From Niabella aurantiaca DSM 17617 (GTDB taxonomy: Bacteria > Bacteroidota > Bacteroidia > Chitinophagales > Chitinophagaceae), in NCBI RefSeq assembly GCF_000374125.1, contig NZ_KB893626.1, forward strand, positions 248,001-312,000: a stretch of 64,000 nt of DNA. The letters are read 5' to 3'. A model generated the notes under the pieces. The model saw nothing but the letters and a program-made list of their open reading frames with translations, ran no database searches and had not been told where the DNA came from. The position numbers were made by a program, and so were the translations under genes. How positions within the stretch are numbered: the stretch's first letter is position 1; each line of letters begins with the position of its first letter. Positions 362-58,491 of this stretch are shown in pieces.

Positions 362-2167
362 ATGAGCGATACTTTACATATTCAGCATGAGGTTGCGAGT
401 CATGGTCATTCAGGAGAGCCGCATATGCACCATCACAAGGAAACATTCATATCGAAGTATATCTTCAGTATGGATCATAAGATGATTGCAAAACAATTCC
501 TGGTAACGGGTATTATCTGGGCCATCATCGGTGGACTGTTCTCGGTACTGTTCCGTTTGCAGCTGGGTTTTCCTGATCAGTCGTTCCCCATCCTGGAAAC
601 TTTTTTTGGCCGGTGGGCAGAGGGAGGAAAGATAAAGCCTGAGTTTTACTATGCGTTGACCACCATGCACGGGACCGTATTGATATTTTTCGTATTGACA
701 GCGGGACTGAGCGGAACTTTTGCCAACCTCCTGATTCCTTTACAGGTGGGTGCAAGAGATATGGCTTCCCCGTTCATGAATATGTTGTCGTTCTGGTTCT
801 TCTTTGCCGCCAGTATTGTCATGCTGTCTTCTTTGTTCACACAAACCGGGCCTGCTGCCGGCGGTTGGACGGTATATCCCCCGCTGAGCGCACTGGGGCT
901 TGCTTCGCAGGGCTCGAAGAGCGGTATGGACCTCTGGATCATTGCCATGACCTTATTTGTGGCATCCCAGTTATTAGGTGGTCTGAACTATATTTCCACG
1001 ATCTTAAATATGCGTACCAAAGGTATGTCTATGACACGGATGCCGCTCACCATCTGGGCCATCCTGTTCACCGCCATCCTGGGTGTATTGTCCTTCCCGG
1101 TACTGCTTTCCGGTCTGGTATTGTTGATGTTTGACCGCCACCTGGGCACCAGCTTCTACCTCAGCGATATCTTTGTTGCGGGGCAGGCCCTGCCCAATGA
1201 GGGGGGAAGCGCCATTCTTTATCAGCACCTGTTCTGGTTCCTGGGGCACCCCGAGGTATATATCATCATCCTGCCCACCATGGGTCTGGCGTCGGAAATA
1301 CTTGCCATCAATTCACGAAAACCGGTCTTTGGCTATATGGCCATGATCGCGTCGCTGATGGCGATCTGTGTACTGGCCTTCCTCGTATGGGCGCACCATA
1401 TGTTTGTAACCGGTTTGAACCCGTTCCTGGGATCGGTATTCGTATTGCTTACCTTGCTGATCGCCATTCCGTCAGCGATCAAGGTATTTAACTGGATCAC
1501 CACCATCTGGAGGGGAAATATCCGCTTCACCCCGGCGATGCTTTTCGCCATCGGGTTTGTGAGCATCTTCATTTCAGGTGGGCTAACAGGGATCTGGCTG
1601 GGTAACTCCACGATCGATATCCACCTGCACGATACCATGTTTGTGATTGCCCACTTCCATATTGTAATGGGGGTATCGGCTTTCTTCGGAATGTTTGCGG
1701 GTATTTATCACTGGTTCCCCAAATTGTTTGGTCGGTTCATGAACAACACACTGGGCTACATCCACTTTTGGGTAACGCTGGCATGCGCATATCTGATCTT
1801 CTGGCCCATGCACTACCAGGGTATGGCCGGTATGCCAAGACGTTATCTGGACAAGAGCAGCTGGGTAAGCTTCAGCCAGTTCCACAGCCTGGATGCCATG
1901 ATCACTGTTGCAACGATCATCGCATTTTCCGTGCAACTGATGTTTGTGTTCAACTATTTTTATTCCATGTATAAAGGAAGAAGAGTGCGGTCGCAGAACC
2001 CCTGGGGCGCAACCACCCTCGAATGGACCACACCGATCCACCCCGGACACGGGAACTGGGAAGGTGAGATCCCTGAAGTACATCGTTGGGCATATGATTA
2101 CAGCAAGGACGGAAGAGATTTTATTCCGCAGACCGAGCCGGTGGGCGAAGATGAAAGTGCACATTAA
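362..2167 (+). CDS. ctaD: Cytochrome c oxidase subunit I
   Basis: Catalytic subunit (601 aa) of a heme-copper oxidase, reducing O2 at a heme a3/CuB centre in the inner membrane. Visible landmarks are the low-spin heme ligand H103 (TMHGTVLIF), the GHPEVY motif with H296, E298 and Y300 (CuB ligand, D-channel Glu and cross-linked Tyr of A-type oxidases), the CuB pair H345-H346, and the heme ligands in HDTMFVIAHFHIVMG. About twelve hydrophobic segments are present. The N-terminus before the first membrane segment is His-rich (six His in residues 14-25), which could be a metal-handling tail but is not needed for the family call. It lies between subunit II and heme O synthase in one operon. Confidence 0.98.
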   Translation: MSDTLHIQHEVASHGHSGEPHMHHHKETFISKYIFSMDHKMIAKQFLVTGIIWAIIGGLFSVLFRLQLGFPDQSFPILETFFGRWAEGGKIKPEFYYALTTMHGTVLIFFVLTAGLSGTFANLLIPLQVGARDMASPFMNMLSFWFFFAASIVMLSSLFTQTGPAAGGWTVYPPLSALGLASQGSKSGMDLWIIAMTLFVASQLLGGLNYISTILNMRTKGMSMTRMPLTIWAILFTAILGVLSFPVLLSGLVLLMFDRHLGTSFYLSDIFVAGQALPNEGGSAILYQHLFWFLGHPEVYIIILPTMGLASEILAINSRKPVFGYMAMIASLMAICVLAFLVWAHHMFVTGLNPFLGSVFVLLTLLIAIPSAIKVFNWITTIWRGNIRFTPAMLFAIGFVSIFISGGLTGIWLGNSTIDIHLHDTMFVIAHFHIVMGVSAFFGMFAGIYHWFPKLFGRFMNNTLGYIHFWVTLACAYLIFWPMHYQGMAGMPRRYLDKSSWVSFSQFHSLDAMITVATIIAFSVQLMFVFNYFYSMYKGRRVRSQNPWGATTLEWTTPIHPGHGNWEGEIPEVHRWAYDYSKDGRDFIPQTEPVGEDESAH

Positions 2168-2225
2168 GAGTGAATGGGCAACAGTACAAACCATTGACCA
2201 TTCACTGTTAACTAAATAAAAAGAA

Positions 2226-3125
2226 TTGAATAGATCTGAAGGGGGCGGAGTAAAGGATTTTCTCCAGTTGATGAAGCCCTCATTAAGTATAATGGTCGTT
2301 TTCAGCAGTGTGATCAGTTACCTGCTGGTACCGGATGTGATGTATGATTGGTGGAGGATCGCTTTGCTCTTTGCAGGTGGGTTGTTGGTAACAGGTAGTG
2401 CCAACACCATCAACCAGGTTGTAGAAAAGGACACGGATGCGCAAATGAAAAGGACCGCAAAACGCCCGATCGCTTCAGGACGGCTGACACCGGAGCAGGG
2501 TTGGGGGTTTGCCATTTTTACCGGCGCCGCGGGCATTTTCATTTTGGGGTATTATTTTAACTGGACAGCCGGGATACTGGCTGCTTTTAGCCTGTTTTTA
2601 TATGCCTTTGTGTATACACCGTTAAAAAAGGTCAATTCCGTTGCCGTATTGGTGGGCGCATTTCCCGGCGCATTTCCCTGTCTGATCGGATGGGTGGCCG
2701 GGTTTGTTCCGGGGCAGCAGATCCATTGGCTGGGGGGGATCGTTTTGTTTGGCATCCAGTTCCTGTGGCAATTCCCGCATTTTTGGGCCATTGCCTGGGT
2801 AGCGCACAAGGATTACAGCAATGTCGGGTTTAAATTATTGCCCAGTGACAAGGGCCCCACAAAATTTACCGCATTGCAAACCGTAGTATATTCGCTGTTG
2901 ATGCTTCCGATCACCATCGCCCCCTTTTTTGTGGGGATCTGCGACTATGGAACGGTAAAGGGAGTGATTGGCGGAGTGCTGATCATTGCGGCAAATATTT
3001 TTTTGATCGGAAGGGCCGCCACCCTTTATAATAAAATGGATGTACCATCTGCAAGAAAAGTGATGTTTGGCAGCTATATCCATTTGCCGGTGGTGCTGCT
3101 GGCCCTGCTACTGGCGAAGGCCTGA
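2226..3125 (+). CDS. ctaB: Protoheme IX farnesyltransferase (heme O synthase)
   Basis: UbiA-family membrane prenyltransferase (299 aa) that adds farnesyl to heme b to make heme O, the precursor of the heme A used by the adjacent oxidase. The Asp-rich prenyl-binding motif is seen as NQVVEKDTDAQMKRTAKRP, and the chain is hydrophobic throughout, with about eight or nine membrane segments. I chose the TTG start at 2226 because conserved N-terminal family sequence (DFLQLMKPSLS) begins before the first ATG at 2271. It lies 58 nt after ctaD. Heme A synthase (CtaA) is not in the window. Confidence 0.93.
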   Translation: MNRSEGGGVKDFLQLMKPSLSIMVVFSSVISYLLVPDVMYDWWRIALLFAGGLLVTGSANTINQVVEKDTDAQMKRTAKRPIASGRLTPEQGWGFAIFTGAAGIFILGYYFNWTAGILAAFSLFLYAFVYTPLKKVNSVAVLVGAFPGAFPCLIGWVAGFVPGQQIHWLGGIVLFGIQFLWQFPHFWAIAWVAHKDYSNVGFKLLPSDKGPTKFTALQTVVYSLLMLPITIAPFFVGICDYGTVKGVIGGVLIIAANIFLIGRAATLYNKMDVPSARKVMFGSYIHLPVVLLALLLAKA

Positions 3126-3156
3126 TGTTTGATTGAGGATCGATAAGAAATGATAT

Positions 3157-3732
3157 ATGAACACAAGTATTGTGAGCGAACAGCAACATAGAAGACTACA
3201 CCCCCACAAATTTGCACTGTGGGTGGCAATCGCGAGCATCCTTATGATGTTTGCCGGGCTTACCAGTGCTTTTATTGTAAAAAGCAACCAGTCCGGCTGG
3301 CGTACTTTTGTGCTGCCCAATATTTTCTGGATATCTACGGTGCTCATTCTGGCAAGCAGCCTTACCATGCTGATGGCCGTAAAAGCATTTAAAAGCCGGG
3401 GGCTGCAGCAATACCGCACCCTGCTGGGCATTACATTTGCGCTGGGAGCAGCCTTTGTTATTTGCCAGGTGCTTGGTTTTGAGCAGCTATGGAATAACAA
3501 TGTGCAGTTCAAGGGCGCTTCCGGGGCAGGTCAGTTCTTTTATGCCATTGCCGGGCTGCACGCCGTACACGTTATTGGCGGTGTGGTGGCCTTGCTCGTG
3601 ATCTTTTTAAAATCGATCGCAGGTAAAACCAAATCCTACGATGCCGTTCCTGTGGAAGTAATGAGCATGTACTGGCATTTCGTAGACCTGCTTTGGTTAT
3701 ATTTAATGCTATTTTTCATAATTCTGGGATAA
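3157..3732 (+). CDS. Heme-copper oxidase subunit III, short paralogue
   Basis: Subunit III-type protein of 191 aa with about five membrane helices. The family signature is recognisable near residues 125-150 (GQFFYAIAGLHAVHVIGG) and at the C-terminus (MYWHFVDLLWLYLMLFF). The length matches the short CyoC-like form. It is the first of two subunit III paralogues in this operon, with the longer one starting 29 nt later. Having both side by side is seen in Bacteroidota caa3-type operons. The subunit has no metal centre and stabilises the catalytic subunit. Confidence 0.93.
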   Translation: MNTSIVSEQQHRRLHPHKFALWVAIASILMMFAGLTSAFIVKSNQSGWRTFVLPNIFWISTVLILASSLTMLMAVKAFKSRGLQQYRTLLGITFALGAAFVICQVLGFEQLWNNNVQFKGASGAGQFFYAIAGLHAVHVIGGVVALLVIFLKSIAGKTKSYDAVPVEVMSMYWHFVDLLWLYLMLFFIILG

Positions 3733-57636: not shown

Positions 57637-58182
57637 ATGCAATTAACTGTTATTCAACAAAAAATTTATGAAATAAGAGATCAGCGCGTAATGATGGATT
57701 ATGATCTCGCTGATTTGTACCAGGTCGAAACCAAGCGGTTGAAAGAAGCTGTAAGAAGAAACAGAAAGCGTTTTCCGGAAGACTTTATGTTTGAACTGAC
57801 CAAAGAGGAACAAGACGGTTTGAGGTCGCAATTTGCGACCTCAAACCGGGGAGGGCGGCGCTATGCACCTTTTGCGTTTACCGAGCATGGAGTGGTGATG
57901 CTGGCATCTGTATTAAACAGCGATAAGGCCATTGAAATGAATATTACTATCGTGCGGGCATTTATCGCTTTGCGGGAACTTGTCTTACACCGTGGGGATT
58001 TTTTGCAACAGCTGCAAAGCCTGCGTACCGAATTGGACCAGCGTATTGATGGGCATGATGCCCAACTGAACCAGATATATGAAGCGCTGGAGAATATGCT
58101 GGATGCGGAAGCCGAAAAGAAAGCTGAAGAGAAGGCTAAAGCGGAAGCATGGACAAACAGGGAACGGATCGGTTACAAATGA
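57637..58182 (+). CDS. ORF6N domain-containing protein
   Basis: A 181-aa protein with an N-terminal ORF6N DNA-binding-type domain (IYEIRDQRVMMDYDLADLYQ, RRNRKRFPEDFMF, then YAPFAFTEHGVVMLASVL) and a C-terminal coiled coil rich in Glu, Ala and Lys. The domain is usual in phage and mobile-element proteins, but many Bacteroidota chromosomes carry single copies. No other phage genes are near. A 33-nt perfect palindrome (57816-57848) is embedded in the coding region. Confidence 0.88.
   Translation: MQLTVIQQKIYEIRDQRVMMDYDLADLYQVETKRLKEAVRRNRKRFPEDFMFELTKEEQDGLRSQFATSNRGGRRYAPFAFTEHGVVMLASVLNSDKAIEMNITIVRAFIALRELVLHRGDFLQQLQSLRTELDQRIDGHDAQLNQIYEALENMLDAEAEKKAEEKAKAEAWTNRERIGYK
57816..57848. repeat. 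Perfect 33-nt palindrome inside the ORF6N gene
   Basis: Sixteen-base arms (57816-57831 and 57833-57848, core GAGGTCGCAA / TTGCGACCTC) around one central T. It encodes the LRSQFATSN stretch. The length and perfection are well beyond what I would expect by chance in a coding sequence. Confidence 0.75.
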
Positions 58183-58205: not shown

Positions 58206-58238
58206 AAAAAACCCTCACAGGAGGTACCTGCAAGGGTT
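58206..58238 (-). terminator. Intrinsic terminator of the tRNA-like RNA
   Basis: On the minus strand AACCCT..CAGG pairs with CCTG..AGGGTT around a five-base loop, with a two-base internal mismatch, and ends in six T residues. It begins 10 nt after the 3' end of the tRNA-like body. Confidence 0.78.
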
Positions 58239-58247
58239 ATTAAAAAG

Positions 58248-58422
58248 CTGTAGGGGGAGGGCTCGAACCTCCACGAGGCAGTTAGCCGCAACACAAAATC
58301 CGTGGTGGTCAACCCCGGTCGATCCCGACCGAAACCAGGACCGGCTCTATGCTGTGTTTATCCTGTGCTCCTCACCCCCGAGACAAGAGGGCATGTCTGC
58401 CAAAAATTTCATCACCCCACAG
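58248..58422 (-). ncRNA. tRNA(Leu)-like RNA with a variable region of about 100 nt
   Basis: On the minus strand the ends pair over 8 bp (CTGTGGGG / CCCTACAG). Read as a tRNA there is a 7-bp acceptor, T8 and G9, a D arm with a Leu-like loop (AAATTTTTGGCAGA), a 5-bp anticodon stem CCCTC / GGGGG with loop TTGTCTC, and a 5-bp T arm with canonical loop (GGAGG TTCGAGC CCTCC). The loop would give anticodon GUC, normally aspartate, on a class II body. Between the anticodon and T arms lie about 102 nt (58273-58374), closed by GAGG / CCTC and containing the 6-bp hairpin CGGTCG / CGACCG. CCA is not encoded. A promoter (58459-58491) and terminator (58206-58238) frame it. It does not fit tmRNA, RNase P or SRP RNA; 6S-like RNA or a degenerate tRNA are alternatives. 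Confidence 0.65.
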
Positions 58423-58458
58423 TGTAAAAGAACATGCTGTTTTCAGCGTTTGATAGAA

Positions 58459-58491
58459 CAAAAATAGACAATCTCACCTGATCATTCCAAA
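58459..58491 (-). promoter_or_regulatory. Promoter of the tRNA-like RNA
   Basis: On the minus strand a TTTG at 58491-58488 and a perfect -7 box TATTTTTG at 58466-58459 are separated by 21 nt, matching the Bacteroidota consensus. The predicted transcript start is near 58452, about 30 nt before the tRNA-like 5' end. Confidence 0.7.

Follow-up and report, generated by a model that had tools for sequence, protein, structure and literature searches.

An AsnC-linked tRNA-like RNA family of Bacteroidota and their phages, and its possible role as a carrier in asparagine synthesis

Introduction

In Escherichia coli, the genes asnC and asnA are arranged divergently. The AsnC regulator was previously regarded as specific to asnA and its own gene, asnC, and it activates asnA at low asparagine (PMC4482635). 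Asparagine may also be made on a tRNA. There are genera, some of them Bacteroidetes, that possess asparaginyl-tRNA synthetase (AsnRS), glutaminyl-tRNA synthetase (GlnRS) and the amidotransferase GatCAB but no asparagine synthetase, and synthesis on tRNA-Asn has been proposed for them (PMC4206432). The determinants for aspartyl-tRNA synthetase (AspRS) are G34, U35, C36, G73 and G2-C71; U1-A72 confers amidation of Asp-tRNA(Asn) by GatCAB, and tRNA(Asp) is protected from it by its G1-C72 and U20a (PMC9976931). Here, we analyse a gene for a tRNA-like RNA that lies divergent from a gene for an AsnC-family regulator in Niabella aurantiaca DSM 17617. Both are found in the window, that is, the whole stretch of 64,000 nucleotides from contig NZ_KB893626.1 (positions 248,001 to 312,000) that was analysed.

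A sequence-only reading of the window had proposed that the gene encodes either a tRNA-mimic regulatory RNA or an extreme tRNA. The structural part of this reading stands: a tRNA mimic that has a giant, structured variable domain and is transcribed separately. However, in place of a generic regulatory RNA we suggest a carrier in asparagine metabolism, because the RNA has a mixed set of AspRS and GatCAB identity elements and an AsnC neighbour, and decoding is unlikely. With moderate confidence, we favor the view that it is a dedicated, non-decoding tRNA under the control of AsnC, which would serve as the carrier for the conversion of aspartate to asparagine in RNA-dependent asparagine synthesis.

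Results

Conservation and covariation of the RNA

The Leu-like D arm, the 5-bp anticodon stem with a 7-nt loop and the triplet GUC, and the 5-bp T arm with a canonical T loop that were described from the sequence are all present in the RNA (Table 1), and the host tRNA-Leu genes are the best match to the D arm. The insert, estimated at about 102 nt, is exactly of this length. The acceptor stem had been given as 7-8 bp. It has 7 bp (TGTGGGG/CCCTACA, 58415-58421 with 58249-58255); an eighth pair, -1:73, could form but is not conserved. We rejected an 8-bp acceptor like that of selenocysteine tRNA (tRNA-Sec), because position -1 is A or G in at least 20 of the 243 members and the 3' ends of the host tRNAs place G at 73.

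About 240 distinct homologues were collected, with lengths of 95-212 nt for the whole RNA. In a BLAST search against 60 relatives, most of the genomes from the host's own family had the RNA, and other families of the order showed it partially. A covariance model was built from 23 members, to which a wider set of 101 matches (96 distinct) was then aligned. In this alignment, 96.4% of cells are paired and 25 of 36 pairs show two-sided changes. The number of compensated cells is 479, compared with 124 in shuffles. Slid structures collapse in the same test, and the original MAFFT alignment of the 23 members gives the same covariation picture as the model-fitted one. Thus, the homologue search and covariation check that the sequence-only reading had suggested found homologues in relatives and covarying stems, with 0 of 500 shuffles reaching any of the measures. 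The acceptor, D, anticodon and T helices are 97-100% paired, and G18, G19 and UUCGA are conserved. The insert had also been described as structured, and the stems of this variable domain, GAGG/CCTC included, do covary; in the apical stem (helix 6), all 8 pairs show two-sided changes. Folding of the single sequence gives a minimum free energy (MFE) z-score of -1.7 and an MFE structure that differs from the cloverleaf, so that the MFE evidence for the fold, taken alone, is weak. It is conservation and covariation, not MFE, that decisively settle that the RNA is real.

Between the covarying stems of the variable domain lies a conserved internal loop, GAYAAA/CUAA. The GGGUUGACCAC motif further out is common to Chitinophagaceae-type members and many phage members and is absent from minimal forms; Sphingobacteriaceae-like members have a short hairpin only, in place of the GGGUUGACCAC domain. 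A U.U mismatch is kept in the anticodon-like stem (CCTCC/GGTGG) of the Sphingobacteriaceae-like members L131, L141, L142, L149 and related loci. Two further candidates were set aside. Pairing of the loop GUCUC with other parts of the RNA (GGGA or GAC) is not kept across homologues, and an anti-Shine-Dalgarno sequence, CACCUCCUU, in f23 members was dropped as lineage-specific.

An uncatalogued RNA family

The RNA is a previously uncatalogued family and a member of no Rfam family. ARAGORN called no tRNA in the window. A comparison with Rfam, as the sequence-only reading had advised, gave nothing at gathering scores and so no match to a known RNA; below these scores there were only chance-level matches driven by the terminator, the best being His_leader (E 0.2). 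The Rfam tRNA model does not match at its gathering score even with short members, and only the shortest phage forms are called by ARAGORN, as tRNA-Asp(GUC). A search of open-licence papers found no description of this RNA. The structural reading also stands in that the RNA is not a 6S RNA, a tmRNA or an intron; it has no Rfam match, and its anticodon arm is complete. A role as replacement for a missing tmRNA was rejected, because a normal tmRNA is present elsewhere in the host.

Identity elements and the anticodon loop

The host genome encodes a broad set of tRNAs, including a normal tRNA-Asp, as well as the tmRNA. The host tRNA-Asp has G1:C72 and the loop CUGUCAC, and the host tRNA-Asn has U1:A72. 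This genome also has three distinct tRNA-Trp(CCA) genes, only one of which encodes the full CCA, and a second tRNA-His that is divergent (L066, L090, L091).

Among 191 distinct bacterial homologues of the RNA, U1:A72 is found in 190, and G2:C71, G73 and C74 are each found in all 191. Acceptor pairs 4-69 and 5-68 vary while U1:A72 and G2:C71 stay fixed. Most host tRNA genes stop at N73-C74 and do not encode the remainder of CCA; the G73-C74 end matches this, and thus the RNA ends like a host tRNA. In the anticodon loop, U35, C36 and C38 occur in all 243 distinct homologues and G34 in 235 of them (97%). C38 is a further determinant for AspRS. As read from these positions, the RNA joins the anticodon set of tRNA-Asp to the acceptor set of the amidotransferase.

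A T or C occupies position 37 in 235 of the 243 homologues and a G does so in 8, where sets A3 and A4 were found by a pattern that fixes part of the loop and excludes A37 by construction. Set A2, which was not found by pattern, agrees on the loop and has no A37 either. Position 33 is C, G or A rather than U in 38 of 243. Decoding by the RNA appears unlikely, because it has a pyrimidine at 37 and position 33 is not fixed, in contrast to the 30 host tRNAs checked, all of which have U33 and purine 37.

The divergent AsnC neighbour

An Lrp/AsnC-type regulator is the sole neighbour common to RNA loci across families. Among proteins of solved structure, the regulator in the window is closest to E. 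coli AsnC (2cg4, E 7.9e-33), and 154 bp separate its gene from the RNA. In a first set of loci, AsnC is divergent from the RNA in all 62 cases where it is present, at a distance of 87-224 nt, and in a set of named loci it is divergent in 48 of 48. This gives 110 of 110 in total, where the two sets may share some species. Among 199 genomes of the order, 123 have both the RNA and an AsnC orthologue, one has the RNA only, 17 have AsnC only and 58 have neither, in counts that ignore phylogeny.

Genome G110 (L343) has neither the RNA nor gatB. Here, an AsnC homologue (1504-1905, minus strand) is divergent from asnB (2060-3436, plus strand). AsnC diverges from asnB in this genome and controls asnA in E. 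coli, and the RNA thus sits where an asparagine synthetase gene is found in other genomes. In G007 (L331), a genome of the same genus as the host, AsnC is 90% identical with no RNA between the neighbouring genes, and pheS directly adjoins asnC. Synteny with pheS was set aside since it holds within the genus only.

Distribution in bacteria and phages

The RNA occurs in Chitinophagaceae, Saprospiraceae, Cyclobacteriaceae, Sphingobacteriaceae, Hymenobacteraceae and Ignavibacteriales. In a sample of 392 genomes from the phylum, true matches, defined as those of at least 88 bits, were found in 42 genomes from seven families. Ordinary tRNA-Leu and tRNA-Ser score at most 64 bits and are clearly apart; matches in this lower range, of about 85 nt, are such tRNAs and were excluded, with one exception in G129. 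This Hymenobacteraceae-type genome has a 60-bit match (L368, G129:C23:55337-55414) that is a 77-nt mini form without the variable domain and with the loop CUAUCUC. A pattern scan of named genomes gave at least 120 contigs, and among the matches listed 80 of 80 were confirmed by the model. Named carriers include Chitinophaga, Terrimonas, Saprospiraceae, Cyclobacterium, Algoriphagus, Spirosoma, Dyadobacter, Hymenobacter, Mucilaginibacter, Pedobacter and Ignavibacteriales.

Giant phages of Bacteroidota carry the RNA family. The same pattern matched 59 viral contigs, each with a model match of 65-134 bits, and INPHARED holds one record only, an uncultured 636-kb phage. Ordinary tRNA genes lie in the fetched stretch in 51 of the 59 contigs (at least five in 35), the RNA is at most 200 nt from a same-strand tRNA in 42, and a tmRNA is also called in 10. 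RNA ligase, phage-type DNA polymerase and endolysin genes are found nearby in the three contigs examined. Since the viral copies are mostly inside tRNA arrays, phages that come with tRNA sets of their own carry this RNA as well. Three viral copies (L273:1228-1322, L288:7347-7441 and L313:2566-2660) are 95-nt forms with A1:U72 and T37 and without the variable domain, and ARAGORN calls them tRNA-Asp. Hairpin insertions in the D loop are seen in the phage copies L300, L304, L307, L317, L326 and others.

Co-occurrence with GatCAB

The presence of GatCAB in the hosts was judged from a search for gatB. All 42 RNA-bearing genomes of the phylum sample have gatB (39 of 39 within the class). Within the class, gatB without a model-level match to the RNA is limited to five genomes, G098, G129, G211, G259 and G436. 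The first two lack GlnRS and thus need GatCAB for Gln-tRNA. The other three, all in family f25, have divergent GatB-like proteins (E ~1e-105) together with AsnRS and GlnRS. In four genomes of RNA-bearing families (G076, G172, G062 and G179), both the RNA and gatB are absent. Each of the 75 genomes tested for AsnRS has it, and GlnRS is present in 36 of the 42 with the RNA. As these two enzymes leave tRNA-Asn and tRNA-Gln independent of GatCAB, the RNA is the obvious candidate for a GatCAB substrate in 36 genomes.

Features of the locus

The RNA is single-copy in its genome, and the R1 match to the host genome (G000:C2:306247-306422, window 58247-58422) scores 152.6 bits. The coordinates of its parts are given in Table 1. 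A promoter and an intrinsic terminator of its own had been assigned to the gene from the sequence. The terminator was found as such. A promoter is present at 58459-58491, but by the promoter consensus of Bacteroidota it reads better as that type than as sigma-70. Of 194 homologues, 113 have TAnnTTTG no more than 90 nt upstream, while 12 would be expected from shuffles.

An open reading frame of 181 aa (57637-58182, plus strand) is convergent with the RNA. It has no NCBIfam match, and its protein presumably resembles the ORF6N/KilA-N type. A perfect 15-bp inverted repeat, CGGTTTGAGGTCGCAAATTGCGACCTCAAACCG, lies within it at 57816-57848.

Table 1. Coordinates in the window of the tRNA-like RNA, its parts and the divergent regulator gene
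Feature	Position	Strand	Remarks
Predicted mature tRNA-like RNA, U1 to C74	58247-58421	-	position -1 is 58422
Acceptor stem, 5' strand, U1 G2 U3 G4 G5 G6 G7	58415-58421	-	pairs 4-69 to 7-66 covary
Acceptor 3' strand CCCUACA, discriminator G73 and encoded C74	58247-58255	-	
D arm, Leu-like, AUG/CAU stem, G18 G19	58393-58412	-	A-U/G-C/U-A and U-A/C-G compensatory changes
Anticodon-like arm, 5-bp stem, 7-nt loop UUGUCUC	58375-58391	-	GUC at 58382-58384
Variable domain between anticodon and T stems, 102 nt	58273-58374	-	helices 4, 5 and 6 covary
Base stem of variable arm, GAGG, partner CCTC at 58275-58278	58370-58373	-	GAGG/CCTC, GGGG/CCCC, GAAG/CTTC and GGAG/CTCC compensations
Second variable stem, CAG, partner CTG at 58279-58281	58363-58365	-	CAG/CTG, CGG/CCG, ACG/CGT and TGG/CCA compensations
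Internal-loop strand GAUAAA, facing CUAA at 58282-58285	58357-58362	-	near-invariant in bacterial alignments
Apical part: covarying stem, variable hairpin and GGGUUGACCAC motif	58288-58355	-	stem 58348-58355 with 58288-58295
T arm GGAGG-UUCGAGC-CCUCC, 5 bp	58256-58272	-	100% paired in set A2
Intrinsic terminator, 12-pair stem then T run	58210-58238	-	
Bacteroidota-type promoter TTTG-N21-TATTTTTG	58459-58491	-	from sequence and TAnnTTTG enrichment upstream of homologues
AsnC-family regulator gene, 155 aa	58576-59043	+	divergent from the RNA; PF01037 and PF13404

Discussion

We propose a scheme of charging and amidation in which the RNA would be a carrier for asparagine synthesis. Synteny and homology suggest that the divergent AsnC would control transcription of the RNA according to asparagine. 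The transcript would be trimmed like a tRNA and a CCA end would be added, consistent with its host-type N73-C74 end. AspRS could then charge the RNA with aspartate through GUC, C38, G73 and G2:C71, all of which are present in the sequence. GatCAB would read U1:A72, a determinant absent from true tRNA-Asp, and convert the Asp-RNA into Asn-RNA. Misreading of Asp codons by the Asn-RNA would be stopped by pyrimidine 37, by the lack of a fixed position 33 and by the bulk of the variable domain; such a block fits the need, because an Asn-charged RNA with GUC would misread these codons if it decoded. In the least certain step, asparagine would be released or passed on to supply the Asn pool for AsnRS. 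We see about even chances for a broader reading, that the RNA represents a new class of non-coding tRNA which unites the identities for Asp charging and for the amidotransferase, works off the ribosome as a recyclable carrier for asparagine synthesis in much of Bacteroidota, is controlled by AsnC in place of a synthetase gene, and is borne by phages in their tRNA sets.

Several observations speak against a carrier. Position 34 is C, U or A in 8 of the 243 homologues, including Hymenobacteraceae-type ones, and in these plain Asp identity fails. G1-C72, which AspRS normally also sees, is replaced by U1:A72. The phage copies that have A1:U72 and no variable domain, three copies with two distinct sequences, do not fit either. 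AsnC is kept without the RNA in 17 genomes. The distributions of gatB and of the RNA share phylogeny, and only a few co-losses within families break it. Finally, the GAYAAA/CUAA loop and the GGGUUGACCAC domain are conserved but the carrier model does not explain them.

Alternatively, the RNA, charged with Asp or Asn, might act as a sensor or decoy. The supply of the two amino acids would then be reported or tuned by the charging state of the RNA or by its binding to AspRS or GatCAB, and the bulk of asparagine would be made elsewhere. The control by a divergent AsnC would suit such a role, and the large conserved variable domain exceeds the needs of a carrier. Even so, we consider it unlikely, since our analysis found no mRNA target or riboswitch-like partner, and the tie to gatB in genomes with both AsnRS and GlnRS favors a substrate.

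The combination of a non-decoding loop with an intact acceptor would also be expected of an amino-acid donor. Non-translational tRNAs do occur in other bacteria, such as the non-proteinogenic tRNA-Gly that serves staphylococcal cell walls, and Asn-RNA or Asp-RNA might likewise be used for the non-ribosomal modification of lipids, wall or peptides. However, no transferase is conserved beside the RNA, where AsnC alone is common across families, and phages carry the RNA without such enzymes in the stretches examined. This role is quite improbable. We see a similarly slight chance that the RNA is never aminoacylated and is a mimic that regulates by binding a tRNA-handling protein. The giant variable domain and pyrimidine 37 would be in keeping with a mimic, but the invariance of precisely the AspRS and GatCAB determinants and of the host-type G73-C74 end, in contrast to the variable remainder of the acceptor, speaks against it.

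It is very improbable that the RNA is a tRNA-Asp that decodes in the ordinary way and is extreme only in the size of its variable arm. Though the short phage forms are called tRNA-Asp(GUC) by ARAGORN and the phage copies sit in tRNA arrays, pyrimidine 37 and, in many members, a position 33 other than U contrast with all 30 host tRNAs checked. Moreover, U1:A72 stands in place of G1:C72, and the host and several of the same phages have a normal tRNA-Asp. A tRNA pseudogene or chance fold, for which the modest folding z-score of -1.7 could be cited, is refuted by the covariation in about 100 sequences (0 of 500 shuffles), the phylum-wide conservation and the fixed synteny.

If the RNA is indeed a carrier for asparagine synthesis, an amino acid would be made on an RNA that is dedicated to this purpose and not to translation, and present-day metabolism would include a coenzyme-like RNA carrier. 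This would explain the presence of GatCAB in the many Bacteroidota that have AsnRS and GlnRS, a puzzle for which the literature calls the enzyme possibly vestigial. AsnC would gain an RNA target, and phage tRNA arrays would gain a new element. Even if the proposed mechanism is wrong, an RNA family that is phylum-wide, proven by covariation, linked to AsnC, borne by phages and missing from Rfam merits experiments.

The closest known system is tRNA-dependent asparagine synthesis, in which AspRS and GatCAB act on tRNA-Asn, as in Deinococcus, Thermus and Bdellovibrio. It shares with the RNA a U1:A72 acceptor that is read by GatCAB and the order of Asp first, then Asn, and here too there are genomes with AsnRS, GlnRS and GatCAB together (PMC4206432). 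The known pathway uses the decoding tRNA-Asn as its carrier and depends on a non-discriminating AspRS. The proposed carrier, in contrast, would be a separate RNA that has the Asp triplet GUC in a non-decoding loop and that could be charged by an ordinary AspRS. Like asnC/asnA in E. coli, the RNA locus has an AsnC-family regulator divergent from a single target, but this target is an RNA gene and not an asparagine synthetase gene. The RNA resembles tmRNA in having a tRNA-like end and a large extra domain, and some of the same phages carry both; unlike tmRNA, it keeps a full D stem and an anticodon arm and has no tag reading frame. With class II tRNAs (Leu and Ser) and tRNA-Sec it shares an extra arm between the anticodon and T stems, and a Leu-like D arm, though its variable domain is about 100 nt long with internal-loop motifs and it has an Asp triplet and pyrimidine 37. 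Non-proteinogenic or pseudo-tRNAs, namely the staphylococcal tRNA-Gly and the tRNA-Other of Bacillus cereus, are kept out of translation. The RNA described here differs from them in its identity set, its far larger variable domain, its phylum-wide occurrence, its link to AsnC and its carriage by phages.
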